In this document: one piece after another, positions 1,651-23,772 of the stretch | How the letters are laid out: the number at the start of each line of letters is the position of its first letter | Position numbering within the stretch: the stretch's first letter is position 1 | DNA from: Thermodesulfatator indicus DSM 15286 | Lineage (GTDB): Bacteria > Desulfobacterota > Thermodesulfobacteria > Thermodesulfobacteriales > Thermodesulfatatoraceae | DNA length: 64,000 bases | Direction of reading: 5' to 3' | Assembly (NCBI RefSeq): GCF_000217795.1 | Contig: NC_015681.1 | Location: forward strand, 1,665,244 to 1,729,243 | The notes under the pieces: generated by a model | What the model saw: only the letters and a program-made list of their open reading frames with translations | Database searches by the model: none | What the model was told of the DNA's origin: nothing | Made by a program: the position numbers and the translations under genes

Positions 1651-4650
1651 ATGGCCTCACTAGAACTTCAAAAGATTCATGAGCTCAGGGGCCGCGTGCG
1701 TTTTAGGGCCCCTGTGCTTTATCGGGCGTTTCACTTAAAGGATTATCTTGAAGGAGTCCTTTCCAGGAACGGTCACATAAAAAAAGTTAAGGTTAATCCT
1801 TTAACGGCTACTATTTTGCTTGTTTTCAAACCTGATATACCAATTGAAAAGATAGAGGCTGAACTTAAATCCTACCTTGAAAAACTGCCAAGTCCTTCTG
1901 AGGTGAAAAAACTAAAAAGTGAAGCTAAGCCGGTAGTTGCATCTTTAAAAGAAGACGGCCCCCCGTGGCATACTATGCCGGTTGAAGAAGTTTTAAAGCT
2001 CCTTGGTACTGATAAAGAAAAAGGGCTTGCCCGTAAAACTTACGAAAAACTTTTACAAAAATACGGCCCAAATATTCTTCCTGAGATAACCCCCAGAACC
2101 GGCTGGGAGATTTTTTTTGAGCAAATAAAAAGTGTACCAGTAGCTATTTTGGGCGTGGCGGCTGGAATTTCCCTTTTTACCGGAGGGATTATTGACGCGG
2201 TGGCCATTTTGTGTGTGGTAGGTTTAAACGCCTACATAGGCTACAAAACCGAAGCCGAAGCAGAAAGAACTATAAGTTCGCTTAAAAAACTTCTTCATCC
2301 TGAAGCCCTGGTTATACGAGAAGGCAAAGTTCATCGCGTTCCGGCTGAAACCATTGTTCCAGGAGACATTTTTCTTTTACGCCCGGGGGACTATGTTCCC
2401 GCTGATGGACGCATTATAGAGGCGGAAAGGTTAAGCATTGACGAATCGGCTCTAACCGGTGAGAGCCTACCAGTGGTCAAGACGGAAAAACCCCTTCCTC
2501 CCAATGAAACCTATCCTCTCGCTGACCGGGTCAACATGTGTTTTATGGGTACGCTGGTGCTTGGGGGGCATGGCAAGGCCGTAGCCGTAGCCACCGGTAA
2601 GGATACAGAGATCGGACGCATTCAGCTTTCACTGGCAGAAGCAAGGCCTCCTGAGACTTCCATAGAAAAACAACTTGATGAAATGGGCACCAAGCTGGTG
2701 GTGCTTTCAGGGGCCCTTTGCGGAGCGGTTTTTGTACTGGGAGTTATGAGGGGTTTTGGCTTTCTTGAAATGCTTAATACGGCTTTATCTTTGGCCGTGG
2801 CGGCAGTGCCTGAGGGGCTCTCTACAGTCGCTACGACCACCCTTGCCCTTGGTGTGCGTGAAATGAAAAAAGAAAACATAGTGGTAAGGCGCCTCTCGGC
2901 CATAGAGGCCCTTGGTTCGGTTCAGGTGATGTGCCTTGATAAAACCGGCACCATTACCGAAAACCGTATGACGGTAACTGAAGTTAGCTGTGGTAAGTCT
3001 TATAAACCAAAAGATTTAGAAAACAGGTATTTGAATTTTTCGCCAGCCCCGCAAATTCTTTTTGAAGAGGCCCAGGACGAGCTTTTGTCTTTGTTGGCGG
3101 TATGTGTACTCTGTAATGAAAGCGAAGTGGTAAAAAACGGCGAAAAGCTTTCCTTTAGGGGTACGCCTACCGAGACGGCTCTTCTTGAAATAGCCTTTAA
3201 AGCCGGTCTTGATATTGAAGCCTTACGAAAGGCCTTTCCCAGGGTGCGTATTGTGCATCGGGCGGAAAACCGTCTTTACATGGTGACGGTTCATTCCCTG
3301 CCTTCAGGTAAGTTCCTTTACGCTATAAAAGGAATGCCAACGCAAGTACTTGGGCTTTGTGGGCAGGTTTTAAAAGGTGGCCGTCTTTATCCTCTTGATG
3401 AAGAGGAACGTATTGAACTTACCAATTTAAATGACCAGCTAGCCGTGCGGGGTTTAAGGGTACTTGGAGTGGCCTTTGGTATTTCTGATGACCCCGAAAT
3501 AGACCTTGACCTAAAAGGCGAGGCTCCCTGGTGTGAAAACTTCGTGTGGCTTGGCTTCGTAGGTATGGAAGATCCAATTCGTCCAGGTATTAAAGATCTT
3601 ATTTCACTTTTACACCAAGCGGGTATCCGCACCGTAATGATAACTGGAGATCAGGCTCCCACGGCTTATGCTATCGGCAAGGCCATAAACATAAGTGGTC
3701 AAGACGAACTTGTTATTCTCGATTCTTCTGACTTTTCGCATTTAAACCCCGAGGCCTTTAAAGGGCTCTTGAAAAGGGTATCTGTTTTTTCAAGGGTGAG
3801 CCCGGCTGACAAGCTACGTATTGTCCAAGCCTTTCAGGACTTAGGCCTTAAGGTAGCCATGACAGGCGATGGTATTAACGACATTCCGGCGCTTAAAGCG
3901 GCAGACATAGGGGTTACTACCGGAAGTGGCACTGATGTGGCCAAAGAAGTAGCAGACATAATTATCGAAGACGATCAACTTGGCACCATGGTGCTGGCGG
4001 TGGAAAAAGGCCGTATCATTTACAAAAACATTCGCAAGTCCCTTGAATTTTTGCTTTCTACCAACATTAGTGAGATAATGGTTTCAGTTTCAGCCAATCT
4101 AGCTGGCCTTGGCCAACCTTTGAATCAGATGCAGCTCCTCTGGATTAACCTGGTAACAGATGTTTTCCCTGGGCTTGCGCTTTCCCTTGAGCCGGCTGAG
4201 CCTGGCATTATGAAGGAGCCTCCCAGGGATCCCCAAAAACCCATCATGGATACTAACGACTTTAAAAGGCTTTCTTTGCAGGCATCGGTTATATCGGGAG
4301 CCTCTCTTTTCCCGTATGTTTATGGCCTGGTGAGATATGGACGCGGTCCTAAGGCCAGTACCCTTTCTTTCCTTTCTCTTACCGCCTCTCAGTTATTACA
4401 CACTTTGAACTGTCGCAGCGAAAAGCTTACTTTTCTTGAAAATTCAGCTCTTCCGAAAAATCCACACTTGGCCAAGTGTATGTGGGGAACTGCAGCGGCG
4501 CATAGTTTATTTTTCTTGCCTCCGATTAGAAAAGTTTTAGGGTTAAGCCCTCTAGGGCTAATTGATACAGTGCTAGTGGCGGCCACTTCGTTTGGTTCTT
4601 TGTTTTTTAACGCCTTTTTAAAAAAAGTTATCCGAGAGGGGCATTTATGA
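1651..4650 (+). CDS. P2-type (Ca2+-ATPase-like) cation pump with N-terminal HMA_2 domain
   Basis: A 999-residue P-type ATPase. Residues 1-80 are an HMA_2-like domain with HELRGRVRFRAP and no CxxC. The cation-ATPase N-terminal domain follows (from about 108), then TGES (269-272) in the A domain, PEGL in TM4 (from 387), the phosphorylated Asp430 in DKTGT, and TGDGIND. TM5 has N805 and E808, and TM6 has N833, T836 and D837 within NLVTD. These match the SERCA/PMR1 calcium-site ligands, unlike the CPx motif of P1B heavy-metal pumps. Ca2+ or Mn2+ is the likely cargo by family knowledge. The ATG at 1651 is preferred to TTG at 1645; neither has a clear ribosome site, so coupling to the upstream gene is likely. 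Its stop overlaps the next start (ATGA). Confidence 0.92.
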   Translation: MASLELQKIHELRGRVRFRAPVLYRAFHLKDYLEGVLSRNGHIKKVKVNPLTATILLVFKPDIPIEKIEAELKSYLEKLPSPSEVKKLKSEAKPVVASLKEDGPPWHTMPVEEVLKLLGTDKEKGLARKTYEKLLQKYGPNILPEITPRTGWEIFFEQIKSVPVAILGVAAGISLFTGGIIDAVAILCVVGLNAYIGYKTEAEAERTISSLKKLLHPEALVIREGKVHRVPAETIVPGDIFLLRPGDYVPADGRIIEAERLSIDESALTGESLPVVKTEKPLPPNETYPLADRVNMCFMGTLVLGGHGKAVAVATGKDTEIGRIQLSLAEARPPETSIEKQLDEMGTKLVVLSGALCGAVFVLGVMRGFGFLEMLNTALSLAVAAVPEGLSTVATTTLALGVREMKKENIVVRRLSAIEALGSVQVMCLDKTGTITENRMTVTEVSCGKSYKPKDLENRYLNFSPAPQILFEEAQDELLSLLAVCVLCNESEVVKNGEKLSFRGTPTETALLEIAFKAGLDIEALRKAFPRVRIVHRAENRLYMVTVHSLPSGKFLYAIKGMPTQVLGLCGQVLKGGRLYPLDEEERIELTNLNDQLAVRGLRVLGVAFGISDDPEIDLDLKGEAPWCENFVWLGFVGMEDPIRPGIKDLISLLHQAGIRTVMITGDQAPTAYAIGKAINISGQDELVILDSSDFSHLNPEAFKGLLKRVSVFSRVSPADKLRIVQAFQDLGLKVAMTGDGINDIPALKAADIGVTTGSGTDVAKEVADIIIEDDQLGTMVLAVEKGRIIYKNIRKSLEFLLSTNISEIMVSVSANLAGLGQPLNQMQLLWINLVTDVFPGLALSLEPAEPGIMKEPPRDPQKPIMDTNDFKRLSLQASVISGASLFPYVYGLVRYGRGPKASTLSFLSLTASQLLHTLNCRSEKLTFLENSALPKNPHLAKCMWGTAAAHSLFFLPPIRKVLGLSPLGLIDTVLVAATSFGSLFFNAFLKKVIREGHL

Positions 4651-5837
4651 GAAAAAACTTTATTTTTACTTCCTCTTCCGTAACAGATGGCCATCCAGAC
4701 AAGCTTTGTGACCAGATAAGTGACGCCATTGTTGACCGCTTTTTACAGCAAGATCCTCTGGCCTCGGTAATTGCTGAGTGTGCAGTGTCTCAAGGGCTTT
4801 TATTTCTGGCGGTGAGATTTTCCTCTGTAGCTTTAATAGATGTGCCTTACATCGCCCGCTGGGTGATAAATGAGGTTGGCTATCGCTCGCCAAATTTTAG
4901 TGCCCGGAACTGTACTATTCTCACCAGTATAAATGAGCAGCCCCTTGACGAAGAAAGACGTGTGCCTGATGAAGAGCTTGACGACGAAAAGATAGAACGT
5001 ATCAAAGTCCGTAACCAGGCTAATGTTTTTGGTTACGCTTGTGACCACACGCCTTCTCTCATGCCTCTTCCCATTGTTTTGGCCCACAAATTAGCCAGAC
5101 GCTTGACCACCGTTAGACTTTCCAGCTTATTACCTTATCTTTCGCCAGACGGTAAAACTCAGGTAGGAGTAGAATTTCGCGATGGGCGTCCATACGCTAT
5201 ATCGTCTTTAATGATTCTAGCTTGTATAGCGGAAAAAATGAACGAACAAAAAGTGAAGGCCGAGATTTACGAACAGGTGATAAAACCGGCCTTTCAGGGA
5301 GAAGAAATAAGGCCTGATGACAAAACCTTTGTTGATATTCGTATTATCTATGACCCACAGGGTTGTGGTCCTATGCTTCATTCTGGATTAACCGGACGTA
5401 AAAATGCCGTTGACACTTACGGTGAATACGCTCGTCACAGTGGAGCCGCTTTAAGTGGTAAAGACCCTACGCGTATAGATAGGGTAGGGGCCTACGCGGC
5501 GCGATATGCGGCCAAAAATGTGGTAGCGGCAGGGCTTGCCAAAGAGTGTGAAGTGCATCTTAGTTATGCCATCGGCCGTTCACGTCCGGTAAGTATAACT
5601 GTGAATACTTTTGGAACGGGAATTATTCCAGATGAAAGAATAGAAGAGCTCGTTAAAAAGCATTTTGACTTTCGGCCAGCAGCTATTCAAAAGCAATTTG
5701 CTCTTCGTAAGCTACCTTCTCAGTTCAAGGGCGGTTTTTACCAAAAACTTGCGGCTTTTGGGCACATGGGTCGTATGGACCTTGCTGCTCCCTGGGAGAG
5801 AACAGATAAAAAAGACCTCCTCAAAGAGGAGGCCTAA
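4647..5837 (+). CDS. metK: Divergent methionine adenosyltransferase (MetK family)
   Basis: A 396-residue MetK homologue of normal length. It keeps GHPDK (His16, Asp18), the potassium-site Glu44, NVFGYACDHT, SGLTGRK and SGKDP. By hand alignment with E. coli MetK it differs at key methionine contacts. The Glu of VGGEI is Arg57, the Asp of MGDCGLTG is His245, and the second Lys of SGKDPSK is Arg276. The first conserved Glu in FTSES is Ser, and the mobile loop lacks the usual GQDI/QGVD text. It may use another substrate, or be regulatory or inactive. Its ATG overlaps the ATPase stop by four bases, so it belongs to that operon, an unusual place for a housekeeping metK. A normal copy may exist elsewhere. 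Confidence 0.8.
   Translation: MRKNFIFTSSSVTDGHPDKLCDQISDAIVDRFLQQDPLASVIAECAVSQGLLFLAVRFSSVALIDVPYIARWVINEVGYRSPNFSARNCTILTSINEQPLDEERRVPDEELDDEKIERIKVRNQANVFGYACDHTPSLMPLPIVLAHKLARRLTTVRLSSLLPYLSPDGKTQVGVEFRDGRPYAISSLMILACIAEKMNEQKVKAEIYEQVIKPAFQGEEIRPDDKTFVDIRIIYDPQGCGPMLHSGLTGRKNAVDTYGEYARHSGAALSGKDPTRIDRVGAYAARYAAKNVVAAGLAKECEVHLSYAIGRSRPVSITVNTFGTGIIPDERIEELVKKHFDFRPAAIQKQFALRKLPSQFKGGFYQKLAAFGHMGRMDLAAPWERTDKKDLLKEEA
5806..5833 (-). terminator. Intrinsic terminator for the minus-strand HMA_2 operon
   Basis: On the minus strand the sequence folds as GCCTCCTC-TTT-GAGGAGGT followed by CTTTTTT, an eight-base stem with a U tract. It lies about 40 bp beyond the stop of the gene at 5872-6243 and inside the last codons of the convergent metK-like gene. 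The U tract exists only in the minus direction. Confidence 0.7.
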
Positions 5838-5871
5838 CCAAGGGAGGTGAAGCAGGGAAGGCGGGCAGTTT

Positions 5872-6243
5872 CTATATAATTAAACTTAGAAAAGAAAGCC
5901 CAGTTCCTCTTAAAACTTGATCTGATACTAAACCAAATATAGCCCTACCGGCCTGTTTACCTATTTTTTCTACGTGTTTTTGTAATATTGTTTCGCAACC
6001 AACGGCTAAACGACTGTTAAAATAGCCTTCTTTTTCAAGGGCCTGAACTATCTCTTCAGCATCAATCACTGCTGGATTGTAATTTATTACAATACTGCCC
6101 GTAAGAGTGTTGGTGTTGACCGAAGTAACCCCTCCAAGGTGCATTATAAAATCTTTTATTAACTCAGCCGCGGCTTCGTTGTTTTTAATTATTGGTGTTC
6201 GGAGACGAATACGCCCCTTCACTTTGTGCAGGTAATACGACAT
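5872..6243 (-). CDS. HMA_2-like domain protein
   Basis: A 123-residue protein with the same N-terminal motif (HKVKGRIRLRTP) as the two HMA_2 domains on the opposite strand. It is followed by GGVTSVNTNTLTGSIVINYNP and an alpha/beta pattern expected of the fold. There is no CxxC. Residues about 95-123 form a helix ending in a short hydrophobic tail (GLSFLSLII), perhaps a weak membrane contact. GGAGGAAAATA precedes the ATG on the minus strand. The zinc-ribbon gene upstream overlaps it by 59 bp, so the two form one small operon converging on metK. Three HMA_2 domains within 6 kb suggests that they assemble together; this is inference. Confidence 0.75.
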   Translation of the reverse strand: MSYYLHKVKGRIRLRTPIIKNNEAAAELIKDFIMHLGGVTSVNTNTLTGSIVINYNPAVIDAEEIVQALEKEGYFNSRLAVGCETILQKHVEKIGKQAGRAIFGLVSDQVLRGTGLSFLSLII

Positions 6244-6523
6244 TATTTTCCTCCTCCAAAGCTATTTTTAAATAGGTGGAACACTCAGGATATCTGGAGC
6301 AACGCCAACGTATAAACTTTTGTGTTTTCATATAAACATACATTTTTTGTCCGCATTGAGGACAAGATGGTCTTTTAATAGAATTAGGTTTCGATTTTTC
6401 GGTAAACTGTTTGTTGCATACCAGGCAGCGATAGCGCTGTAATCCGTCTTTGGTTTTTCCATAGCGATTATAAGCCTGAGAGCCACAAAATGGACATTTT
6501 ATTGCTTTCATTTTGTTTTCCAT
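6185..6523 (-). CDS. Double zinc-ribbon protein (InsA-like plus topoisomerase-type C4 finger)
   Basis: About 112 residues from the ATG at 6523; the ATG at 6511 is also possible, and upstream TTG codons are less likely. The first ribbon reads CPFCGSQAYNRYGK then QRYRCLVCNKQF, the pattern of InsA/IS1-type N-terminal fingers. The second reads CPQCGQKMYVYMK then RWRCSRYPEC, like the C4 fingers at the C terminus of topoisomerase I. There is no transposase catalytic domain, so this is a small nucleic-acid-binding protein, possibly a regulator of the HMA_2 gene it overlaps. The start is uncertain because no strong ribosome site is visible. Confidence 0.62.
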   Translation of the reverse strand: MENKMKAIKCPFCGSQAYNRYGKTKDGLQRYRCLVCNKQFTEKSKPNSIKRPSCPQCGQKMYVYMKTQKFIRWRCSRYPECSTYLKIALEEENNVVLPAQSEGAYSSPNTNN

Positions 6524-6630
6524 TTGGCTAAAACTGTAGAAGGAATTTTTGAAAGAAAAGTTTAGGCTTTTTGACAATTCCGTTACAAATTCAGTTGGCT
6601 CTTCAAAAGTTTACGAAGAAGCATATTTTA

Positions 6631-6645
6631 GGGACAGGCAAAAAT
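6631..6645 (+). repeat. REP-like motif GGGACAGGCAAAAAT
   Basis: A single copy of the dispersed GGGACAGGC(A)AAAATT motif, just before the PHA-granule-region gene. The same core recurs at 8416-8434, 9007-9027, 9055-9071, 37337-37355, 37818-37851 and 51164-51198. Confidence 0.5.
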
Positions 6646-6661
6646 AATTAAGGGGTTTTCC

Positions 6662-6934
6662 ATGGCGGATTTAAAGATAAAAAGGTCTCACTCTCAGGAC
6701 CCTGAAAAATTAAAAGAAATTTTTGAAAAAAATTTTGGTCCAAAGGCTGAAAAATACGGAGTCAAAGTTAAATGGGAAGGGTTAAAGGCTAGGTTAGACG
6801 GCCCAGTAAAAGGTGAGCTTCGCATTGAACCAGAGGAGATCATTCTTGAAGCTAAACTTAGCTGGACGGCCAAGCTTTTCAAAGGAAAAATTGAAGAGGA
6901 AATTAATAAAACTCTTGATGAAGTTTTAGCTTAG
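6662..6934 (+). CDS. Polyhydroxyalkanoic acid system (PHA_gran_rgn) family protein
   Basis: A 90-residue soluble protein beginning MADLKIKRSHS, with KWEGLKARL and a C-terminal LFKGKIEEEINKTLDEVL. This order of motifs (I-x-R-S-H, then WEG, then LKG-x-IE-x-EI) matches the PHA_gran_rgn family, found next to polyhydroxyalkanoate granule genes in proteobacteria. Its biochemical role is unknown. No PHA synthase is visible in the window. Its 3' end overlaps the convergent radical SAM gene by nine bases. Near the repeat protein at 886-1641 it adds a second granule-type protein to the region, but its promoter is probably separate. Confidence 0.78.
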   Translation: MADLKIKRSHSQDPEKLKEIFEKNFGPKAEKYGVKVKWEGLKARLDGPVKGELRIEPEEIILEAKLSWTAKLFKGKIEEEINKTLDEVLA

Positions 6935-7894
6935 AACGCTGGTATTAATTGGGTCTGGTTCGCCTAGGTATTTGCCCTGCCAGAGGTCGCGGTTAAGAAG
7001 GGTTTCTTCTATTAAGCGCAGGGTTTTAGTTTTTTCGCGGGCCCAGCCTGGGGCTACTAGTTCGTCAGGACGGGGGTCTCCGGTGAGGCGCTGAATGACT
7101 ACCCGCCACGGAAGCATGGCCAAGGCCTCACAGACTAGGTCAACATATTCATTTTGGGCCAGCGGCTTGTATTGGCCTTCGCGGTAGAGTTTTTCCATCA
7201 TGGTACCACTAACAACGTAAAGCTCGTGAAACTTAAGGCCGTCTATAGGAAGGCTGGCCAATTTTTCTATGGTTTCAAGCATCTGGGTAGGAGTTTCCCC
7301 TGGTAGGCCAAATATCACATGGGTGCACACCAGAAGGCTTTTTCTTTTAGCTAATTCCAGGGCCTTGACGAAATCTTCGTAAGTGTGACCGCGGTTTATA
7401 AAGGCCAAAGTTTGGTCATGGGCGCTCTGAAGCCCCATTTCAAGCCAGACCATAAGCCCCTTATTTTTGTAAGAAGTGAGGAGTTCTACGACTTCTTTGT
7501 TAACGCAGTCAGGCCTGGTGCCTATGGCTAAACCTACGACGCGTTCGTCAACCAGAGATTCGTCGTAAAGTTTTTTAAGCTTCTCAACCGGGGCGTAAGT
7601 ATTGGAAAAGGCCTGAAAATAGGCGATGAATTTTTTTACTTTGTAACGTTTGGCCAGACGCTCCATGCCGTTAAGCATTTGTTTTTTAACGCTGATTCCT
7701 TTTTGGGCTTCCCCGGTGCCTGAGCCAAGGGCGTTACAATAAATGCAACCGCCAGAAGAGATAGTGCCGTCTCTATTAGGGCAGGTAAGGCCGGCGTCTA
7801 TGGTTACTTTCTGCACCCTTTCGCCAAAGTGCTTGCGCAAAAAGGCATTTAGCGAGTGATAGCGTTTTTGAGCTAAAAGTTTGTTTAGTTTCAT
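6926..7894 (-). CDS. TIGR01212-type radical SAM protein (YhcC-like)
   Basis: About 323 residues. The radical SAM cluster motif is CPNRDGTISSGGCIYC, a CxNRDGxxxxGGCxxC form typical of the YhcC/TIGR01212 family, followed by GSGTGEAQKGI. Later motifs include LEMGLQSAHDQTL and HVIFGLPGET. The physiological substrate of the family is unsettled. The ATG at 7894 (MKLNKLLAQKRYHSLN) is chosen because this is the usual family start and because the upstream open frame runs into a repeat element at 7911-8103. It stands alone, convergent with the PHA_gran_rgn gene. Confidence 0.85.
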   Translation of the reverse strand: MKLNKLLAQKRYHSLNAFLRKHFGERVQKVTIDAGLTCPNRDGTISSGGCIYCNALGSGTGEAQKGISVKKQMLNGMERLAKRYKVKKFIAYFQAFSNTYAPVEKLKKLYDESLVDERVVGLAIGTRPDCVNKEVVELLTSYKNKGLMVWLEMGLQSAHDQTLAFINRGHTYEDFVKALELAKRKSLLVCTHVIFGLPGETPTQMLETIEKLASLPIDGLKFHELYVVSGTMMEKLYREGQYKPLAQNEYVDLVCEALAMLPWRVVIQRLTGDPRPDELVAPGWAREKTKTLRLIEETLLNRDLWQGKYLGEPDPINTSVLS

Positions 7895-8127: not shown

Positions 8128-8991
8128 CTATTTTAAATTGACAAGTAAAGAACCAGTTAAGTTTATGTTTTTTCTTCGTTTGTGTTTAAATCGCAGGAAT
8201 TGTTGGAATTTGTTTGAGACTTCCGTTATAAACTGTTGAGTTCCAATAGCAATACTTTCACTAAAATATTTCATTCTATATCTGAATTTTTGAGGATTAT
8301 CAAATTTTTCTGATTCACCGATTCCGCCTTTGCCGTGAACAAATTCCCGATAAAGTTTGAATTTTTCTTGATCGGACTTGCCAGCATAGGAGGGGAGACC
8401 TAGATCTAGCGATAGAAAATTTTCGCCTGTCCCTCTTCTTGCCCGGTATCCCAGCGAACACCAGCGATAGTCTTCTGGCTTTTCTACTATTCCCGCCCGC
8501 ACTGGGTTCAATTCAATGTAGGCTAGGCAGTTGAGTAGAGCTTCACCGGTTTCGATGATTACGGATTTGAATCTGTCCGCCCAGAAATAACCTTTGCGGT
8601 CAACGCGTTTGTTAAACCAGCGAGAGAAGCGCTGCTTGATGTCTTGTATATAACGGGAAAGGCTGGCTAACCTAGTTCGCCATCTAGCGATTAATTCTTC
8701 GTAGATGAAGACCTTACGTTTGTCGCGGTAGTAAAGCTTGATGCGGCGGATTACTTCTTCGTCGGAAAACTGGTTTTCAGGGAGCATACGGCAGAGTAGG
8801 TGGAAGTGGTTCCCCATGATGGCAAAGCCATAAACTTCAACGAAATAGACTTGCGAGAGCCAGCGAATAAGATTGAGCAGGTGGTCTTTTTCTTCGTTAC
8901 CAAGGACGTCATGACCTGGTAAGGCTGTACGCGAGATGACATGATAAGCCGCTTTTGGATGGTTGGTAAGTAAGCGAGGGATTCTTGGCAT
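8128..8991 (-). CDS. REP-associated tyrosine transposase (Y1_Tnp / IS200-like)
   Basis: About 287 residues from the ATG giving MPRIPRLL. The HUH motif is in GFAIMGNHFHLL. YHVISR near the N terminus, GYFWADRFKS and AYIELNPVRAGIV are typical of the TnpA-REP (RAYT) branch, single-strand HUH nucleases that process REP palindromes. The Tyr nucleophile is probably in the segment around RYIQDIKQRFSRWFNKR, but I cannot fix it. CAGGAGGTTTG precedes the start on the minus strand. Copies of GCCTGTCCC with an adjoining AAAATTT lie just upstream (9007-9071) and even inside the gene (8416-8434), the expected REP context. It appears intact. Confidence 0.85.
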   Translation of the reverse strand: MPRIPRLLTNHPKAAYHVISRTALPGHDVLGNEEKDHLLNLIRWLSQVYFVEVYGFAIMGNHFHLLCRMLPENQFSDEEVIRRIKLYYRDKRKVFIYEELIARWRTRLASLSRYIQDIKQRFSRWFNKRVDRKGYFWADRFKSVIIETGEALLNCLAYIELNPVRAGIVEKPEDYRWCSLGYRARRGTGENFLSLDLGLPSYAGKSDQEKFKLYREFVHGKGGIGESEKFDNPQKFRYRMKYFSESIAIGTQQFITEVSNKFQQFLRFKHKRRKNINLTGSLLVNLK

Positions 8992-9006
8992 ATTCAAACC
9001 TCCTGC

Positions 9007-14806: not shown

Positions 14807-15247
14807 ATGCTGTTATTCTTGGTTTTTCTATTCTTTCTAGGGATAATTGAACCGGTTTTTGCTGTTCAGGTTCACGGTCCTCCCGAAGGCTTTTACTCTC
14901 ATATGCTCGCTCACGTTATTTTTGTGGTAGCTATACTATTTCTTCTTTACTTTTTACGTCAGAATCCTGAAGGAAAAATTCAGCCATGGCGTTATTTCCG
15001 TTGGTCTTTATTCTTTTTTTTGTTGTGGAATTTAGACGCGATGGCTGCCCATTTTTTAAAAAGAGAATTGCCAGAGGAAGCTTTTTATTTGCCAGCTAAT
15101 CCTTTTGAACATGTATTATTAGGCCCATTAAGCTGGAAGAAATGGGCCTTCTATATTACTCATTTAGACCATTTACTTTGTGTTCCTGCTATGTTTTTTC
15201 TAATGCAGAGTTTAAGGCATTTTTATTATACAAAAAGAGACTTATGA
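14807..15247 (+). CDS. His-rich membrane protein paired with a sensor kinase
   Basis: A 146-residue protein with a cleavable-looking signal (residues 1-21, ending VFA) or first helix, then about three more hydrophobic segments. Conserved-looking polar residues sit near the membrane: HGPPEGFYSHMLAH, WNLDAMAAH and HLDHLLC. Such paired His could bind haem or a metal, which is inference. I recall similar proteins next to PAS kinases in delta-proteobacteria but know no named family. Its stop overlaps the kinase start in ATGA, so it is probably the input component of that two-component system. Codon use here and in the next two genes looks more AT-rich than in the nuo genes. Confidence 0.65.
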   Translation: MLLFLVFLFFLGIIEPVFAVQVHGPPEGFYSHMLAHVIFVVAILFLLYFLRQNPEGKIQPWRYFRWSLFFFLLWNLDAMAAHFLKRELPEEAFYLPANPFEHVLLGPLSWKKWAFYITHLDHLLCVPAMFFLMQSLRHFYYTKRDL

Positions 15248-16794
15248 ACTCTCTTCCTTTATACCCTATATATTCCGTAGATTTTTTGGGCTCTTTTTTG
15301 ATGCTTTTGCTCTCTTTTGCTACTTTGGGTTATGCAAGAAGATTAAGGAAAGAACATCCTAAAAGTGTTCTTTTTATTTATCTTTTCGGTTTATCTACCG
15401 CTTTTGTTGCCTTTTCTATTTCTAGAAGCATTGGTCATATGCTTCGTTTTATTTTTATTTATGCTGGAGTAGCTAATTGGTGGAAATCGTTAGCTCCAAT
15501 TTCTGGAAGTTTAAATTCGATCTGTTTTGTAACTATAGCTGCTCTTTCTTTTGTCTATCCTAGTGTTCAGCATGTTATAGCACTTGTTAGATCAGATGCT
15601 GAAAAGTTAAGAAAAGCTAAAGAAGATTTAGAAAGAATTAATCAGGAATTAAGAGAATTACACCAGACATTAGAAGATAAGGTTCGTCAAAGAACTCAAG
15701 AACTTTTGGTTTCTGAGAGTAAATTTAGGCGATTATTTGAATCTTCTGGAGAAGCTATTTTTTTCTGTGATTCACAGGGAAGAATTTCAGATATTAATCC
15801 AAGTGGAGTAGCTTTACTTGGATTTAATGATAAGAATGAACTCATTGGTCAGCCGATGGTGAACTTTTTTGCCGAAAAGAAAGATTGGCAAGAATATGTT
15901 AGAACTACGTGTCAAAGTGGATTTATTAAGGATTTTGAGACTAAATTAATAGCCAAAGATGGCCAAGAAAAATATGTCATTATTACTGCCCATGCTACTA
16001 AAAAATCTAGTGGTTGCAAAATAGGTTTTGAAGGAATAGCGAAAGATATTACTAGCTATCGTAAGATGACTGAAAAATTAATTTATTCAGAGAAAATGGC
16101 TTCACTTGGCCAATTGGCTTCAGGTATCGCACATGAAATTAATACTCCTCTTAATATAATCTTAGGCTATGCCCAAATGCTTAAAAAAGACTTTAAAGAT
16201 AAGCCGGATGTATTTGAAGAATTATCTATAATTGAATCTCAGGCTGAAGTTTGTAAGAAGATAGTGTCTGACTTATTAAGTTTTGCTAGATCTTCTGATA
16301 AATCTTATTCTAAATTGGATATTTCGGTTAATGACTGTATTTTGCAAACAGTTGATATTGTCAAGCATACTTTTGAAAGAGATGGAATAAAATTTTATTT
16401 AGAATTGTCTAAAGATATTCCTTATATTGAAGCTGATCCTGATAAATTGCGTCAGGTTTTTCTTAATTTATTGAATAATAGTAGAGATGCTATTGGTAAT
16501 AATGGTTTGATCTTTATTAAAACTTATCTAGAAGATAAATCTCTTGTTGTAGAATTTGGAGATAATGGTTGTGGTATCTCTCCGGATATTAAAGATAAAA
16601 TTTTTGATCCATTTTTTACGACTAAGCCTCCTAGAAAAGGAACGGGATTAGGTTTATCTGTGTCATATGGCATTATCCAGGAACATAATGGAAAATTTGA
16701 AGTTTATTCTCCTCCAAAAAATCCATATCATCTGAGCTTAGGCTTAAAAACAGTATTTGTTATTACTCTTCCTACTGATGATAAATCTTCTTAA
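15244..16794 (+). CDS. Membrane PAS sensor histidine kinase
   Basis: A 516-residue kinase. About three membrane helices span residues 10-115, then a coiled coil (about 118-155), one PAS domain (about 160-275), a HisKA domain with [19 protein letters not shown], and HATPase_c with the N box [11 protein letters not shown]1 DNGCGIS and G2 GTGLGLS. His in HEINTP is the phosphorylation site. The ATG at 15244 overlaps the preceding gene's stop (ATGA) and is preferred to upstream starts, which would read into that gene. It lies 11 bp before an NtrC-type regulator, its evident partner. The stimulus may be a sulfur species or redox state, judged only from the target genes downstream. Confidence 0.9.
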
Positions 16795-16805: not shown

Positions 16806-18194
16806 ATGGAACCTAAAATTTTAGTAGTTGACGATGAGCCTCATATGACGAGAATGCTTAAACGTCTTTTTAAAGAAATTTCTAATGCAGAAATTAAGAC
16901 ATCTTTATCTGGGGAAGAGGCACTTCAACTATTATCGAAATTTTCGCCAGAAGTTGTTGTGACTGATATAAAAATGGAAGGTATTGATGGCATAGTGTTA
17001 TTAAAAGAAATTCTGAAAATCGATCCCACTATTTCTGTTATCCTTATTACTGGCTATGGCACTGTCGAAATGGCTGTAGAGGCACTAAAAGCTGGTGCTT
17101 ATGATTTTATTCAAAAGCCTTTTGATAGCGATCATATTTTACATGTTGTTAAGAGAGCTTTAGAAAGAACTCATCTTTTAAGAGAAAACTTGCGCTTAAG
17201 GGATCAAGTTTTTTCTTGTGCCTGGGAAAAATTGGGCATTATAGGTGAATCTCCAGCTATTAAACGTATTCTAAATATAGTTGAAAGAATAGCTCCTACT
17301 GATGTTCCAGTCTTAATAAGAGGGGAGTCTGGTACAGGCAAGGAACTTATTGCCAGAGCTATTCATGTTTTAAGTGAAAGGCGAGAAAAAGAGATGGTTG
17401 TAGTGAATTGTCCTGCTGTCCCAGAACATATTTTAGAATCGGAGCTTTTTGGCTATTTAAAAGGTGCTTTTACCGGAGCGAATTCAGATAAAAAAGGGCT
17501 TTTCCAAATGGCAAATGGTTCTACTATCTTTTTGGATGAAATAGGAGATATTTCTTTAAATGTTCAGACTAAATTATTAAGAGTTTTACAAGAAAAAGAA
17601 ATTAGACCACTAGGTTCTACAAAAACTATCTCTGTTGATGTAAGAATAATTGCTTCCACCAATCAAGATTTGGAAGCAAAAATAAAACGAGGAGAATTTA
17701 GAGAGGATCTCTATTATCGTTTAAATGTCGTTACTTTAGAATTGCCCCCTTTAAAAGAAAGAAAAGAAGATATATTGCCTTTAGCATATCATTTCTTAAA
17801 AAAATATTCTGAAAAATATCAACGACCAATTGAAGGGTTTAGTTCGGAGGCCTTAGAGTTTTTGGTAAATAATCCTTGGCCTGGAAATATTAGAGAACTT
17901 CAGAATGTTATTAGGAGAGCAGTCTTATTATGTCAGGGAAATGAAATAAAACTCTTGGATCTAATGGATAAAAAAATAGAAATTATGCCGAATTGCTTTG
18001 ATATCCTTTTTGATAAGCCCTATGTTCAAGCTAAAAAAGAATTAGTTGAGAAATTTTCGCGCAACTATATAGAAAAACTTCTTTCAAAGACTCAAGGCAA
18101 TGTTACCCAAGCTGCACGTCTGGCAGGCATGGAAAGACAAGCTTTTCAGCGTTTAATGCGTCAATTTCAGATTAAATCTGAAGATTTTCGTTAG
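16806..18194 (+). CDS. Sigma-54-dependent response regulator (NtrC family)
   Basis: A 462-residue activator in three parts. The receiver (1-120) has DDEP, the phosphoacceptor Asp in VVVTDIKMEG and the Lys in FIQKPF. The AAA+ domain (about 145-380) has Walker A GESGTGKE, the sigma-54 contact GAFTGA and Walker B FLDEIGD. The C-terminal Fis-type helix-turn-helix is NVTQAARLAGMERQAFQRLM. It should turn RpoN-dependent promoters on when phosphorylated by the preceding kinase. A -24/-12 promoter and a GTTGCA/TGCAAC palindrome lie directly downstream, so the TSUP gene at 18451 is its likely target. Confidence 0.93.
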   Translation: MEPKILVVDDEPHMTRMLKRLFKEISNAEIKTSLSGEEALQLLSKFSPEVVVTDIKMEGIDGIVLLKEILKIDPTISVILITGYGTVEMAVEALKAGAYDFIQKPFDSDHILHVVKRALERTHLLRENLRLRDQVFSCAWEKLGIIGESPAIKRILNIVERIAPTDVPVLIRGESGTGKELIARAIHVLSERREKEMVVVNCPAVPEHILESELFGYLKGAFTGANSDKKGLFQMANGSTIFLDEIGDISLNVQTKLLRVLQEKEIRPLGSTKTISVDVRIIASTNQDLEAKIKRGEFREDLYYRLNVVTLELPPLKERKEDILPLAYHFLKKYSEKYQRPIEGFSSEALEFLVNNPWPGNIRELQNVIRRAVLLCQGNEIKLLDLMDKKIEIMPNCFDILFDKPYVQAKKELVEKFSRNYIEKLLSKTQGNVTQAARLAGMERQAFQRLMRQFQIKSEDFR

Positions 18195-18199
18195 AGTTC

Positions 18200-18226
18200 G
18201 TTGCACCTGCAACAAAAAAGTTGCAC
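18200..18226 (+). promoter_or_regulatory. Putative enhancer site for the sigma-54 activator
   Basis: GTTGCACCTGCAAC (18200-18213) is a palindrome with half-sites GTTGCA and TGCAAC. A third half-site, GTTGCAC, follows at 18220-18226. It sits about 85-110 bp upstream of the sigma-54 promoter, the usual distance for an NtrC-type upstream activating sequence. Confidence 0.65.
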
Positions 18227-18308
18227 TACTCGCTTCTAATTTTTTCTTTCTTTCATTGGAAATTCCTTAAATTGGGGGTTTTTTCCCTTTCAAGTAGTTT
18301 TTAAATTT

Positions 18309-18324
18309 TGGCCTCTATTTTGCT
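18309..18324 (+). promoter_or_regulatory. Sigma-54 (-24/-12) promoter
   Basis: TGGCCTCTATTTTGCT matches the TGGC-N8-TTGC[AT] pattern with the invariant GG (18310-18311) and GC (18322-18323) separated by exactly ten bases. It is about 127 bp upstream of the TSUP start and lies between that gene and the gene for an RpoN activator. Confidence 0.75.
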
Positions 18325-18450
18325 TATCAGTTTAAAGAAGACTTATTTGTATTTGGAAAAAGTACAAGGGGGGTGAGATATCAAAGAGTTAGAAATTTCG
18401 GTTCCAATTGATAGGCAAATCTTTTTAAGAACTTTTAAGGAGGAGGAGGA

Positions 18451-19740
18451 ATGGATCGTATAAGAAAATTTTCTAAACTTTTGATGCCTGTCTTTATCGT
18501 ATTGGTAGTTGCCTGGATTTATTGTCTTTATTCTGGAGTGCAGGCTTCAGAAGAAGCTAAGCAAATGGCTAATGAGGCCCAAAAAGCAGCTGCTGCCGGA
18601 GTTGCTGCCACTAAGGCTGCTGGAGAGGTAGCTGGTTGTAATCTTTTGCTTAATAACGATTTGGGCTTAAAGGGCAAATTAGGTGCTATAATCGCTAAAA
18701 CCCCGGTTTGCACGCCCACTTGTACGGAAGGCTGCGTAGATCCCAATGCCCCTCGCGGCTATCTAGGAATTCCCGGGGCCCCGAAACCTAGCCCTATAGG
18801 CGGTCTTCTCTGGGCTATTTGGGTAGGTTGGATCTTTTCAACGGTAGGTGCTTTCGGCGGTATTATGGCGGGTGTTGGTCATATTACCATTTTTGGTCTG
18901 GCTAATTACGCCAAAAGCTTCAAGAAAACCAATCCAGCTCTCAACAAGTTTCTAACTGATACTATACGTGTATCGAACATGTTCTTAGTGGGATTAAGCG
19001 CTTTCGTTTCTACGGTGAACTACTGGCGAATGAAGCGTATTGTTTGGCCTTTGGCCATAGCTTTGGCTATTGGTGCGGTAGGTGGAGCCTTTGGTATTGC
19101 TGAGCTTACAGCCGGAAAAATTAGTTTGAAATCATACATTGGTTACTTTGGTTTGGCCGTTTTTGCCGTAGCTGGTTTTATGTTTTACGGTACCACCGAG
19201 CGGGCCCGTGCTAAAAGAAAAGCTGCTCGCGAAGCGGCCAAGCGTTTTGAAGAAGCGGCTAAAAAAGGCGGTGAGGCCGAAGGTGTTAAAGTCGTCTCTT
19301 TTGGTCTGACTAAGTGTGTATTCACCTTCTACGGAGTAGAGTTTAAGTTTAACCCCCTTCTAGCCGCTTTCGGTGGCTTGGTGATCGCTACCATAGCGGT
19401 TTTCTTAGGTATAGGTGGTGGATTCTTGTTGGTTCCGTTTATGACCGACGTGGTTAAGCTTCCTATGTTCATCGTAGCTGGTACTTCTGCTTTTGTTGTT
19501 CTCATTAAGATGATTATGGGTATTTTTACTTACATGGTTCTTAAAGGTGTTCAGGTATGGTGGCCCCTTATCGGCACGGAGCTAGTAGGTATTTTTATTG
19601 GTTCTATGGTAGGGCCTCGTACTCAGAAATACATTCCTGACATTTGGTTGAAGAGACTCTTCGTAGTGTTAGCCATCTATGTAGGCCTTAGATATACCTC
19701 CAAGGGCTTCTTGGGGAAGAGCATCGTACCTCCTTATTAA
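18451..19740 (+). CDS. TauE/SafE-family (TSUP) transporter
   Basis: A 429-residue membrane protein of the sulfite exporter TauE/SafE type. After one N-terminal helix (about 10-30) there is an unusual segment with an Ala-rich helix and four cysteines (63, 87, 91, 95), probably outside the membrane. Seven to eight helices follow. The C-terminal half has FLGIGGGFLLVPFM and AGTSAFVVL, the classic TSUP repeat. A long basic helix (about 250-275) splits the halves. It probably moves sulfite, sulfonate or another sulfur anion, by family. GGAGGAGGA precedes the ATG, and a sigma-54 promoter lies upstream. Confidence 0.88.
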   Translation: MDRIRKFSKLLMPVFIVLVVAWIYCLYSGVQASEEAKQMANEAQKAAAAGVAATKAAGEVAGCNLLLNNDLGLKGKLGAIIAKTPVCTPTCTEGCVDPNAPRGYLGIPGAPKPSPIGGLLWAIWVGWIFSTVGAFGGIMAGVGHITIFGLANYAKSFKKTNPALNKFLTDTIRVSNMFLVGLSAFVSTVNYWRMKRIVWPLAIALAIGAVGGAFGIAELTAGKISLKSYIGYFGLAVFAVAGFMFYGTTERARAKRKAAREAAKRFEEAAKKGGEAEGVKVVSFGLTKCVFTFYGVEFKFNPLLAAFGGLVIATIAVFLGIGGGFLLVPFMTDVVKLPMFIVAGTSAFVVLIKMIMGIFTYMVLKGVQVWWPLIGTELVGIFIGSMVGPRTQKYIPDIWLKRLFVVLAIYVGLRYTSKGFLGKSIVPPY

Positions 19741-19785: not shown

Positions 19786-20418
19786 ATGCAAGATTGGATT
19801 ATATATTTAGACAAAGTTTTTTTGCCTTTTTACCGCCTACTTTCAGATCCAGTGTTAGCTTATTTTCTCGGAACGTTTATTTTAGCGGTTATATGTGTCT
19901 TTTTAGGTGAGTTTTTAGTAGGTATAGCTTTTTATGCTAATCGACATTATGTAAAAAAATTAACCGATGACCTAGTTAATTGGAATAATCTTTCTGTTGA
20001 AGCAGTTAAAAAGGGAGACACAGAGGCTTATCATACTTTTAATAAAGAAGCTAATGAAGTTTATGGTAAGCTTTTTTTTCTAACTATTGCTCATTCAGCG
20101 GCTTTTTTAATTCCTATTCCTTTTGTGCTTGCCTGGATGCAATTTAAATTTGGTGGTGTGGAGTTTCCTTTGCTTTTTAATGTGCCTTTTATTGGCAATA
20201 GTGTAAGCTATATATTTACCTTTATCGTTTTATATCTACCAGCTTATTGGCTTTTTAAAAAAGTAAAAAATAGGCTTCCTATTTATCGTTATTTTAATCA
20301 AATAATGCAAGAAAGTAGTGAAGCTGTGAAGGAAATGAAAAGTTTAGCTGATTTGTTGGAAGAACGCGTCAAAGCTTCAAAGGCTAAACATAAAAATATT
20401 GTTAAATCAAAAGCTTAA
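19786..20418 (+). CDS. Small membrane protein, possibly Oxa1/EMC3-like
   Basis: A 210-residue protein with helices at about residues 22-50, 95-118 and 130-165. A charged helical segment (55-90) lies between the first two and a basic C-terminal helix at the end. One long helix, a cytoplasmic helical hairpin with EAVKKGDTEAYHTFNKEANE, then a pair of helices recalls the YidC/EMC3/DUF106 superfamily. This is a shape match only. It follows the TSUP gene after a hairpin, with AGGAGGAATT before the ATG, and may assist that transporter. Function unknown. Confidence 0.6.
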   Translation: MQDWIIYLDKVFLPFYRLLSDPVLAYFLGTFILAVICVFLGEFLVGIAFYANRHYVKKLTDDLVNWNNLSVEAVKKGDTEAYHTFNKEANEVYGKLFFLTIAHSAAFLIPIPFVLAWMQFKFGGVEFPLLFNVPFIGNSVSYIFTFIVLYLPAYWLFKKVKNRLPIYRYFNQIMQESSEAVKEMKSLADLLEERVKASKAKHKNIVKSKA

Positions 20419-20428
20419 GGGGGAGGTT

Positions 20429-22525
20429 ATGGGAGAGAAAAGAACAGTTTATTCCATATGTGGTATGTGCTCGGTTAGATGCCCCATCGCCGTAGAAGTT
20501 GAAGACAATGAAGTTCTCTGGATTTCAGGCAATCCTCACGACCAGGGCATAAAAACCGGAATTTGTGCCAAAGGTATTGCTGGTCGGACCTTGCTAAAGG
20601 ATACCGAAAGACCACTTTCCCCTTTGATAAGAGAAGGTGAGAGAGGTTCTGGAAAGTGGCGCAGTGTCAGCTGGGACGAGGCCTTGGATTACGTAGCTGA
20701 CAAACTTAAAAAGATAATAGACGAATACGGGGGGCGGGCGGTTCTTTTAAGTGACCGAGGCGGGCCTTTCGGGGAATACCGAAAGGCCTTTCTCAAGGCT
20801 ATAGGATCACCGAACTACTGTAATCATGATGTTACCTGTGCCATGTCAGTAAACCATGCGGCCCTTTCTCTTTTTGGTTTTGGGAGGAAGACTCTTAACT
20901 ACGATTACAAAAATGCCAAGCATATTATTCTTTATGGCCGCAACATCATGGAAGCCATAAAGATAAAAACTACCAAAGCGGTGCTGGATGCTTTGGATAA
21001 AGGAGCCAAGCTGACTTATATTGACCCGCGCTATAGTGTTACGGCTTCTAAAGCTACTCGCTGGTGGAAAATCTGGCCCGGAACTGACTATGCCCTTAAT
21101 TTGGCCCTAATTCACATACTTATTAAAGAAAGCCTTTACGATAAAGAGTTTGTATCGCGCTGGTTAGATGGTTTCGAGCACTTGGCTAATTTTGTTGAGC
21201 CTTACACCCCCGAGTGGGCGGAAAAGGAAACCGGGATTCCTGCTCATGAAATGTATGAATTTTGTCGTGAAGTGGCCCAAGATGCCCCGCACGTAATCTT
21301 TCATCCTGGCTGGATGAGGGCCCGTTACTTACAGGCCTTCTGGGAAATCAGAACTACCTATCTGTTGAATATTTTGTTGGGAGCAATAGAAGTTCCAGGC
21401 GGCCTTTTCTTTATGAAAGGGCCGGGGGATGCCGGTAAAAAAGGCCTTAATAGCATCGGAGAGAACCTGCCCAAAGTAGAAGAAAAGCGGGCCGACGGAG
21501 TGGGCTGGAAGTATCCTCACATCAATAAAGGGCCAGGATTGTTGCACCGAGCCTTTGAAGCCATAAAAACCGGAGATCCTTATCCGCTTAAGGCTTACTT
21601 TGTCCATCGTCATGATCCTTTGACGGGCCTGCCTGACCCCGAAGCCCAGGTAGAAATATTTAAAAACCTGGATTTACTCGTGGTAATAGATGTTAACTGG
21701 AGTGAAACCTCTAAATACGCTGACGTTATTTTGCCGGAGTGCACTTATCTTGAACGCTCTGATCTTATCGCTACGCAAAAAGGGCTAAAACCCGGCTTTC
21801 GTATAAGGACAGCGGCTATTAAGCCTCAATACGATACCAAGCCTGGTTGGTGGATATACTTACAGTTAGCCAAACGCTTGGGGAAAGGGGAACATTTCCC
21901 CTATGAAACCATTGAAGATCTGTGGCAGAAACAACTTGAGGGTACTGGCGTTTCGGTAGAAGATATACAGAAAAAGGGATTTATTTCTTTAACAGACAAA
22001 CCAATTTGGTATGACCGTGAGGAAAAACTTCCCTTTAAGACAGCTTCAGGAAAAATTGAGATTATCGCCAAAAAGTGGGAGGAAGCTGGTATCCCTTCCT
22101 TAAAACCCTATGAGTCACCCGAAAAACCACCTGCTGGAAAGTTCAGGTTACTCTTTGGTCGTTGTGCCTGGCAGACACACGGCATGTGGCAAAACAATCC
22201 GGCTCTGCATCCTTATCTCAAGGAGAATGTTCTCTGGATTAATGACCAGGTGGCCAAAGAAATGGGTCTTAAAACCGGAGACACAGTAATCGTTAGAAAC
22301 GGAAATTATGAAAAGAAAATAAAGATTTTTGCCACTGAGCTCATACATCCAGAAGCCGTCTATATGCTCCATGGTTTTGGCCGGACCGTGCCTCAACAGA
22401 CCAGGGCTTATCAAAAGGGTGTGGCTGACCAGAGGCTGGAGATAGGCTTGCTAGATGTATATGACCCAGCTGGTGGAGCTAACGCCCTTTGTGAATGTTT
22501 TATAGAAGTTGAACCAGTAAAGTAA
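20429..22525 (+). CDS. Molybdopterin oxidoreductase, thiosulfate/polysulfide reductase-like
   Basis: A 698-residue catalytic subunit of the DMSO reductase superfamily carrying a bis-pterin Mo or W cofactor. Cys11, Cys14, Cys18 and Cys46 (CGMCSVRC, then ICAKG) bind the N-terminal 4Fe-4S cluster. Cys137 in VTCAMS is the likely metal ligand, as in PsrA/PhsA-type enzymes. The molybdopterin domain (WYDR, then TASGKIEI) and C-terminal dinucleotide-binding domain (MWQNNPALHP, then GDTVIVRNG) are present. There is no twin-arginine signal, so it should act in the cytoplasm, unlike typical PsrA or PhsA. The ATG at 20429 follows GGGGGAGGTT. With the ferredoxin next to it and the TSUP gene, a sulfur-compound reductase or oxidase is likely; substrate unproven. 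Confidence 0.85.
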   Translation: MGEKRTVYSICGMCSVRCPIAVEVEDNEVLWISGNPHDQGIKTGICAKGIAGRTLLKDTERPLSPLIREGERGSGKWRSVSWDEALDYVADKLKKIIDEYGGRAVLLSDRGGPFGEYRKAFLKAIGSPNYCNHDVTCAMSVNHAALSLFGFGRKTLNYDYKNAKHIILYGRNIMEAIKIKTTKAVLDALDKGAKLTYIDPRYSVTASKATRWWKIWPGTDYALNLALIHILIKESLYDKEFVSRWLDGFEHLANFVEPYTPEWAEKETGIPAHEMYEFCREVAQDAPHVIFHPGWMRARYLQAFWEIRTTYLLNILLGAIEVPGGLFFMKGPGDAGKKGLNSIGENLPKVEEKRADGVGWKYPHINKGPGLLHRAFEAIKTGDPYPLKAYFVHRHDPLTGLPDPEAQVEIFKNLDLLVVIDVNWSETSKYADVILPECTYLERSDLIATQKGLKPGFRIRTAAIKPQYDTKPGWWIYLQLAKRLGKGEHFPYETIEDLWQKQLEGTGVSVEDIQKKGFISLTDKPIWYDREEKLPFKTASGKIEIIAKKWEEAGIPSLKPYESPEKPPAGKFRLLFGRCAWQTHGMWQNNPALHPYLKENVLWINDQVAKEMGLKTGDTVIVRNGNYEKKIKIFATELIHPEAVYMLHGFGRTVPQQTRAYQKGVADQRLEIGLLDVYDPAGGANALCECFIEVEPVK

Positions 22526-22543: not shown

Positions 22544-23068
22544 ATGGCTAAATATTATATTTATCATAATCCCCAGAGGTGTATTGGTTGCTTGGCTTGT
22601 GAGCTTAGTTGTACTGATTGGAAAGGTTTGCCTTTTGGTTCGGCTAACTGTCGTATTTTTCGTTTCGGGCCGGAGAAAATTCACGGTAAAGAAAATATGA
22701 CTTTTATTTATAACTCTTGCTTTCATTGTGAGAGGGCTTTTTGTGTAGAAGCCTGCCCTACGGGGGCTCTTTTTAAAAGAAATGAAGACGGGATTGTGGC
22801 CTTTAAAGAGGATTTGTGTATTGGCTGTCGGGCCTGTATAATGGCCTGTCCCTGGGGTATTCCTCAGTGGAATTCATTAAAAGGCACTATTCACAAATGT
22901 GATTATTGCGTAGAGCGCCTCGATAAAGGTCTTGAACCCGCCTGTGTTACTCGTTGTCCGATGGAGGCCCTAAAATTCGTAAAGGTAGAAGATGTGAGCA
23001 AACTAAAGCGCACTTCTTGGTTGAAAGAGACATTTAAAAAAGACGTAGCTCATGCAGCGGAGTTTTAA
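22544..23068 (+). CDS. Four-cluster 4Fe-4S electron-transfer subunit (PsrB/PhsB-like)
   Basis: A 174-residue protein with four cysteine groups: CIGCLACELSC, CFHCERAFCVEACP, CIGCRACIMACP and CDYCVERL with ACVTRCP. This is the DmsB/PsrB-type arrangement of four 4Fe-4S clusters. It starts 18 bp after the molybdopterin subunit with GAGGAGG before the ATG, so it should carry electrons to or from that enzyme. No membrane anchor subunit follows, in keeping with a soluble cytoplasmic complex. It is a paralogue of the protein at 23239. Confidence 0.9.
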   Translation: MAKYYIYHNPQRCIGCLACELSCTDWKGLPFGSANCRIFRFGPEKIHGKENMTFIYNSCFHCERAFCVEACPTGALFKRNEDGIVAFKEDLCIGCRACIMACPWGIPQWNSLKGTIHKCDYCVERLDKGLEPACVTRCPMEALKFVKVEDVSKLKRTSWLKETFKKDVAHAAEF

Positions 23069-23238: not shown

Positions 23239-23772
23239 ATGAAAAGCTATACTATTGAGCACGATCCATCAAAATGTGACGGATGCCAAAAATGTGTAGA
23301 AGCTTGTCAAAAAGGGCATAATTTGCCAAAGGGGGTTTCTAACTGTCGTATTCTCAAGTTACGAGTAGTAAAAGATGGTGAAGTAAAAGATATGTATGCC
23401 TATTTTTCTTGTATGCAATGTAAAAAACCCAAGTGTGCTGACGCTTGCCCTACAGGGGCTATGTACAGAGAAAACGACATAGTTTTTATAAATAGACAAC
23501 TTTGTGTAGGATGTCTCAATTGTATTTTTGCCTGTCCCTGGGGTGTTCCAGTTTTTGACGAAGTGAACGGGTTAGTTACCAAATGCGATTTGTGTTATGA
23601 TCGGGTAAAGGCTGGTAAAAAACCTTACTGTGTTGAAGCATGTCCTAATGAAGCTTTAGTGGTTAAAGAGAAAAAGGCTCCAGCAAAAAAGGCGGCTAAG
23701 AAGCCTAAGGCTAAGGCTTCGGCTAAGGCTAAAACACAAATATCAGAATCTCCGACCTCTAACGCTGGATAG
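23239..23772 (+). CDS. Four-cluster polyferredoxin with Lys/Ala-rich tail, linked to complex I
   Basis: A 177-residue protein with four 4Fe-4S motifs: CDGCQKCVEAC, CMQCKKPKCADACP, CVGCLNCIFACP and CDLCYDRV with YCVEACP. From about residue 145 the chain becomes a basic, low-complexity tail of Lys, Ala and Pro (KKAPAKKAAKKPKAKASAK) ending SESPTSNAG. AGGAGG precedes the ATG. It ends 11 bp before nuoA and has its own likely promoter, so it is the first gene of the complex I operon. Since NuoE, NuoF and NuoG are absent, it is a good candidate to deliver electrons to complex I; this is inference. The tail could dock on the enzyme or the membrane. Confidence 0.85.
   Translation: MKSYTIEHDPSKCDGCQKCVEACQKGHNLPKGVSNCRILKLRVVKDGEVKDMYAYFSCMQCKKPKCADACPTGAMYRENDIVFINRQLCVGCLNCIFACPWGVPVFDEVNGLVTKCDLCYDRVKAGKKPYCVEACPNEALVVKEKKAPAKKAAKKPKAKASAKAKTQISESPTSNAG

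Follow-up and report, generated by a model that had tools for sequence, protein, structure and literature searches.

NtrC enhancers have the form TGCACC-N5-GGTGCA and often stand in tandem before a -24/-12 promoter. The locus described here resembles them in its outer TGC...GCA dyad, which is likewise often tandem, and differs in its N6 spacer (18 bp in all, against N5 and 17 bp) and its inner letters AAC/GTT. Of the sigma-54 operons of D. vulgaris, nine code for TSUP or PSE transporters; the sigma-54 activators (EBPs) DVU0110 and DVUA0057 both bind in front of a TSUP operon, and the DVU2956 site, tested by gel shift, consists of three half-sites (accessible part of PMC4641369). As reported there, the EBP gene here lies beside its target, the site is upstream of the -24/-12 element and the regulon appears small; unlike in D. 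vulgaris, a putative 146-aa partner and a molybdoenzyme operon are present. No 18-bp TGCAAC-N6-GTTGCA dyads were seen in the accessible part of PMC4641369, its motif figures apart. LuxO is reported to bind TTGCAWWWTGCAA, with a 3-bp spacer (accessible part of PMC10162802). The half-site letters TTGCA/TGCAA are shared with our locus, but the LuxO-type UAS TTGCA-W3-TGCAA is not found: the spacer is CC here and 1-4 bp in orthologs, and there is a constant N6 dyad. Psr/Tsr-type enzymes have been proposed in Thermosulfurimonas dismutans (accessible part of PMC4911364). Literature searches of one open-access library for sigma-54 and TSUP in sulfate-reducing bacteria returned PMC4641369 alone; none was found on sulfur disproportionation with sigma-54 and molybdopterin, on EBP with sigma-54 and thiosulfate reductase, or on TauE with molybdopterin oxidoreductase in Desulfobulb, and the accessible parts of PMC12316311 and PMC3333781 hold nothing on these genes. 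The switch is ordinary in kind, and sigma-54 control of TSUP operons is already known from Desulfovibrio.

The stretch analyzed (the window) is 64,000 nucleotides of Thermodesulfatator indicus DSM 15286, G000:C1:1665244-1729243 on a single-contig genome of 2,322,224 bases. A 146-aa gene, a kinase gene and the EBP gene are followed, after a 256-bp gap in which the ORF list has no gene, by genes for TSUP, M210, a PhsA-like molybdoenzyme and two Fe-S proteins. The genes beyond the Fe-S proteins are, from their translations, presumably nuo. The ORF list contains no ORF of at least 100 aa that starts between the leader box and TSUP. The kinase start at 15244 was picked for its overlap with the preceding stop. 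The same locus occurs in the near relative Thermodesulfatator autotrophicus S606, whose EBP is 88% identical. The features are as follows.

14807-15247, + strand: 146-aa hydrophobic, mostly helical protein without a Pfam or NCBIfam match
15244-16794, + strand: sensor histidine kinase, hydrophobic helical N-terminus followed by PAS, HisKA and HATPase_c (domain matches)
16806-18194, + strand: NtrC-type sigma-54 activator (EBP) with receiver, AAA+ with GAFTGA, and Fis-type HTH (domain matches)
18200-18205, + strand: half-site 1, GTTGCA, read as what remains recognisable of an upstream dyad, its right half
18208-18225, no strand: dyad TGCAAC-AAAAAA-GTTGCA, the best-supported candidate operator (all 16 orthologs have N6 when the spacing is free to vary)
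18309-18324, + strand: -24/-12 (sigma-54) promoter TGGCCTCTATTTTGCT (pattern counts and conservation)
18368-18376, + strand: leader box GGGGGGTGA, Shine-Dalgarno-like, kept in TSUP leaders
18451-19740, + strand: TSUP (TauE/SafE) transporter, PF01925, first gene of the putative controlled operon
19786-20418, + strand: M210, a 210-aa hydrophobic protein without a family, conserved behind TSUP in related loci
20426-22525, + strand: molybdopterin oxidoreductase, PhsA-like (domain matches, NCBIfam PhsA)
22544-23068, + strand: 4Fe-4S electron-transfer protein (Pfam and NCBIfam matches)
23239-23772, + strand: second 4Fe-4S protein (domain match and gene order)

By domain criteria the EBP is an NtrC-family sigma-54 activator. 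Its matches to PF00158 (Sigma54_activat, 241.4 bits), PF00072 (Response_reg, 100 bits) and PF02954 (HTH_8, 28.7 bits) are all over cut-off, and GAFTGA is present in the translation. The initial annotation had named a kinase and an NtrC-type activator, and the domain matches bear out both. More specific identities were rejected: AtoC is the best NCBIfam match of the EBP, but at 450.4 bits against an equivalog cut-off of 714, and the kinase scores 250.5 bits against 646 for AtoS. Sigma-54 itself is encoded in the genome (PF04552). The transporter belongs to TSUP (PF01925, 77.1 bits against a cut-off of 32.6). The molybdoenzyme finds its best NCBIfam match, PhsA, among the PhsA-type thiosulfate/polysulfide reductases, yet its 575.5 bits fall below the equivalog cut-off of 694, and its operon holds a TSUP gene.

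The candidate regulatory letters begin just after the EBP stop. GTTGCACCTGCAAC lies at 18200-18213, A6 at 18214-18219 and a further GTTGCA at 18220-18225, and the array GTTGCA-CC-TGCAAC-AAAAAA-GTTGCA spans 18200-18225. These letters, and those of the -24/-12 element at 18309-18324, stand between EBP and TSUP exactly as first described. The exact palindrome GTTGCA-N2-TGCAAC has one copy in the genome, and the four other places that fit it with one mismatch are all within ORFs. Near matches in the window with up to three mismatches number 15 against 22.6 expected, and there the perfect copy alone stands out.

The boundaries of the motif were examined in the 16 best EBP places from a search of 60 relatives (58-100% identity): nine loci of one family, ours included, a single locus of a second and six of a third. 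Every one of the 16 has three half-sites behind the EBP stop. A three-half-site fit with free spacings (0-8 for the first, 0-12 for the second) reached 15-18 of 18 at each locus, the single best each time, whereas 320 shuffles gave at most 14. The spacer between half-sites 1 and 2, the palindrome, is 1 bp in seven loci, 2 bp in six, 3 bp in two and 4 bp in one. Half-sites 2 and 3 are 6 bp apart in all 16; loci of the second and third families have other letters in this spacer. Letter conservation gives no preference to half-site 3: it is perfect in seven loci, half-site 1 in 11 and half-site 2 in 10. Eleven of the 16 loci have an exact TGC-N12-GCA core. G005/G006 and G029/G032 are not independent because each pair has identical site letters.

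A four-half-site fit with free spacing was applied to ten chosen loci; the half-site letters for G010 and the paralogs were taken from their own sequence. Two N6 dyads are the single best arrangement, above shuffles, in six of the ten: 6-1-6 in L251, which belongs to another family, 6-2-6 in G010 and G023, 6-4-6 in G021, and 6-1-6 in L062 and L077, which hold a paralogous activator in our genome and in G007. L253 has 6-1-6 among four ties, our own locus and G018 give no 6-x-6 best (four ties each), and the third paralog locus, L078, has one dyad only. An outer left half at N6 is recognisable in three of the 16 orthologs (G010, G021 and G023) and not in our own or the 12 others. These data are read most simply as a tandem pair of 18-bp dyads, TGCAAC-N6-GTTGCA, separated by 1-4 bp, with the 18-bp dyad as the candidate binding unit. 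The palindrome would then be a junction, made of the right half of the first dyad and the left half of the second. The basis of this reading is the unvarying N6, together with the loci that have four half-sites. The bare TGCAAC-N6-GTTGCA with up to one mismatch matches in 39 of the 60 relatives, many of them outside the order, so the 18-mer alone is not specific.

More distant loci were also inspected. Eighteen EBP relatives with a divergent 146-aa gene carry other half-sites, such as TGCCGC...GCGGCA. TGC-N12-GCA occurs in 11 of them, but N17 occurs in 14 and N3 in 13; this set is compatible with the N6 dyad and not decisive, because two other spacings outnumber N12. The 80 named EBP relatives are a mixed set: six are already among the 16, and L193 is L077. 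Nine other deltaproteobacterial loci (L148, L158, L159, L165, L168, L171, L178, L201 and L205) have 146-aa and kinase genes that run divergently from the activator gene; behind the activator come A-tract inverted repeats and a transporter-like gene; eight of the nine have a TGGCA-N6-TTGC element, and five of the nine listings have a molybdoenzyme further on.

Downstream of the array, TTGGCCTCTATTTTGCT occupies 18308-18324, with GG at 18310-18311, N10, and GC at 18322-18323. The element begins 83 bp beyond the dyad at 18208-18225. The pattern TGGC-N7-TTGCW occurs six times in the window against 1.5 expected and at 61 places in the genome against 16 for the reversed control. With such counts a single match is only moderately convincing alone, and the case for a promoter rests on conservation across orthologs and on the aligned leaders. 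TGG, one C and TTGC are invariant in nine of nine aligned same-family leaders, and the invariant columns of the nine-genome intergenic alignment outside the gene ends lie nearly all in the half-sites, the -24/-12 element and the leader box. A simple scorer placed a -24/-12-like element 72-86 bp past half-site 3 in 15 of the 16 ortholog loci; in G009 it chose one 163 bp away, and a nearer one exists (TGGCCTCCAACTTGC). Elements outside our own family can be imperfect (-12 part TTGA in G010, -24 part GGGTC in G021). The element had been called textbook. It is present and conserved, but its TGGCCTC-N4-TTGCT departs from TGGCACG-N4-TTGCT, and that wording was a little strong.

A box RGGRGGTGA, conserved in the nine TSUP leaders, lies 75 nt upstream of the TSUP start. 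It occurs at 18368-18376 in the window and also in the leader of the paralogous operon (L062, 5654-5662; L077, 6719-6727). None of the 30 other -24/-12 matches examined, among the 61 in the genome, has the box within 160 nt. The box is perhaps an mRNA-stabilising or standby ribosome site.

The targets behind the 16 EBPs differ. Nine are TSUP operons, six are operons with an 840-858-aa molybdoenzyme 25-28% identical to that of the window, and one is a 247-aa gene with a 966-aa molybdoenzyme. A molybdoenzyme is present in 12 of 12 ortholog loci whose contig extends far enough, and those in the seven loci of the second and third families are 25-31% identical to the window's. Seven of the 16 TSUP genes examined are not beside this EBP; upstream of them the site fit is 10-13, the level of shuffles, compared to 18 for our own, and three of these upstream regions (G020, G028 and G046) keep GG-N10-GC with TTGC. 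The half-sites are all GTGGCA in G010 and TTGGCA in the better paralog dyads, and such joint shifts are expected if each activator has its own letters. Judged by these comparisons, the site goes with the activator gene, whichever target lies behind it.

Several further loci were noted in passing. In L062 (G000:C1:432000-442000; the region at 4085-7807) the paralogous activator, about 50% identical, has two tandem 18-bp dyads after its stop, and beyond them are a TGG-N10-type element, small genes and a 538-aa membrane protein. The latter resembles a YeiH/PSE exporter. The single dyad of the paralog in L078 (G004, 6100-6391) precedes the start of a different gene, not an L062-type operon; this gene resembles, by eye, an ORF at 8128-8997 of the window that we take to be transposase-like. 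In L046 (G015), before 1501, a TSUP gene directly follows the end of an activator-like gene that, by eye, seems to have no Fis-type HTH. L079 (G000:C1, about 109489, 111699 and 113933) holds three similar tandem units of about 2.2 kb with 183-188-aa proteins, and a 461-469-aa protein follows two of the three.

Parts, conservation, the constant N6, the linkage of site to activator and the rarity of the site are observed directly in the DNA. The 16 orthologous loci back the earlier view that kinase, activator, site, -24/-12 element and operon form one sigma-54 control module. We infer from the sequences the binding, the phosphorelay, the action of an oligomer, the extent of the operon, the signal and the substrate. 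The locus is probably a dedicated two-component sigma-54 switch, in which candidate EBP dimers on the 18-bp N6 dyad would drive the TSUP-molybdoenzyme operon. The membrane-anchored kinase, possibly together with the 146-aa His-rich protein, would sense a signal (our guess is either a sulfur compound or the redox state of the quinones) and phosphorylate the activator. Activator dimers would bind the dyad TGCAAC-N6-GTTGCA and, more weakly, a second upstream dyad of which only the right half GTTGCA is left here. The oligomer would touch RNA polymerase-sigma54 at -24/-12, leading to transcription of TSUP, M210, the PhsA-like molybdoenzyme and the Fe-S proteins.

The initial annotation had proposed that the activator recognises GTTGCA-N2-TGCAAC, next to which lies an additional half-site. 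One dimer would then bind the palindrome in a LuxO-like manner (TTGCA-Nx-TGCAA), and the third half-site would be accessory. Half-sites 1 and 2 are the best conserved by letter; our locus and G007 have a perfect palindrome, more loci have one with other spacers, and a 3-bp spacer like that of the LuxO site (accessible part of PMC10162802) is present in G018 and G033. However, a spacer range of 1-4 bp would change the angle between the half-sites on the helix by about 100 degrees, whereas half-sites 2 and 3 keep N6 throughout and N6 dyads flank the palindrome on both sides in six of the ten fitted loci. The palindrome is thus a rather improbable binding unit, and the proposed motif probably gives way to tandem dyads. 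It is highly improbable that the repeats belong to another regulator or to an intrinsic terminator at the end of the activator transcript. TGCAAC-A6-GTTGCA could pair into a hairpin of 6 bp, and the predicted folding of the region is somewhat stronger than that of shuffles (z about -2), but a terminator scan found none, the site tracks the EBP through target changes and is absent before the seven TSUP genes elsewhere, and the half-site letters change together.

TGCAAC-N6-GTTGCA with up to two mismatches occurs at 11 places in the genome compared to 17 for the reversed control. Nine of the ten places besides our own were examined; not one of them lies within 300 bp of a -24/-12 match, and eight of the nine are inside ORFs of at least 90 aa. 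A genome scan had been advised for further sites near -24/-12 promoters, and in the places examined it revealed no second close site before such an element and no wider regulon. Given one exact site and no excess of near matches, the activator looks dedicated to one operon. Control of further operons through sites too degenerate for a pattern search is unlikely against these counts, although working sites may vary, orthologous sites differing from the window's at up to three of 18 letters, and most D. vulgaris EBPs have one to four operons (accessible part of PMC4641369).

On the sensor side, an alignment of 13 orthologs of the 146-aa protein shows 20 invariant columns, with H23, H32, H36, H82, H122 and C125 among them, and a profile of the protein matches 79 of 395 genomes of the phylum. 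Its gene adjoins a kinase gene in 19 of the best 20 loci outside the order, and nine of those 20 have an EBP of 45-57% identity nearby. Among the loci outside the order, L251 has two tandem N6 dyads, L253 has degenerate dyads with ties and L267 has one isolated TGC-N12-GCA behind the EBP; no N6 dyads were found behind the EBP in L263, L266, L268, L269 and L270, and none was seen in L265, which is the contig of L150. The predicted fold of the 146-aa protein is mostly helical (mean pLDDT 78.7, pTM 0.68), and a search of the model against a PDB library gave no convincing match (best E 2.2). The kinase has the invariant residues S61-R62 and G65-H66 and model helices at 8-38, 44-74 and 79-105, in a model that is weak overall (pTM 0.36). 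It is possible that the 146-aa protein is the sensor input partner of the kinase, and its invariant histidines perhaps hold heme, a metal or quinone. We tentatively suggest, as a conjecture, that the 146-aa protein, kinase, activator and tandem 18-bp operator may be a transferable cassette of an undescribed sensor class, placed before distantly related molybdoenzyme operons in Thermodesulfobacteriota lineages, with a paralogous activator on dyads of other letters driving a putative sulfate-exporter operon.

For arrays of tandem dyads in general, the lesson is that the palindrome which looks tightest may be only the place where two sites meet. For this organism, the analysis yields a corrected, testable candidate operator for an uncharacterised activator, linked to a single PhsA-like molybdoenzyme/TSUP operon. 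Across loci the sensor, the activator and the site are kept as a unit even where other target genes follow, so the module can aid the search for the signal and for what such operons do.
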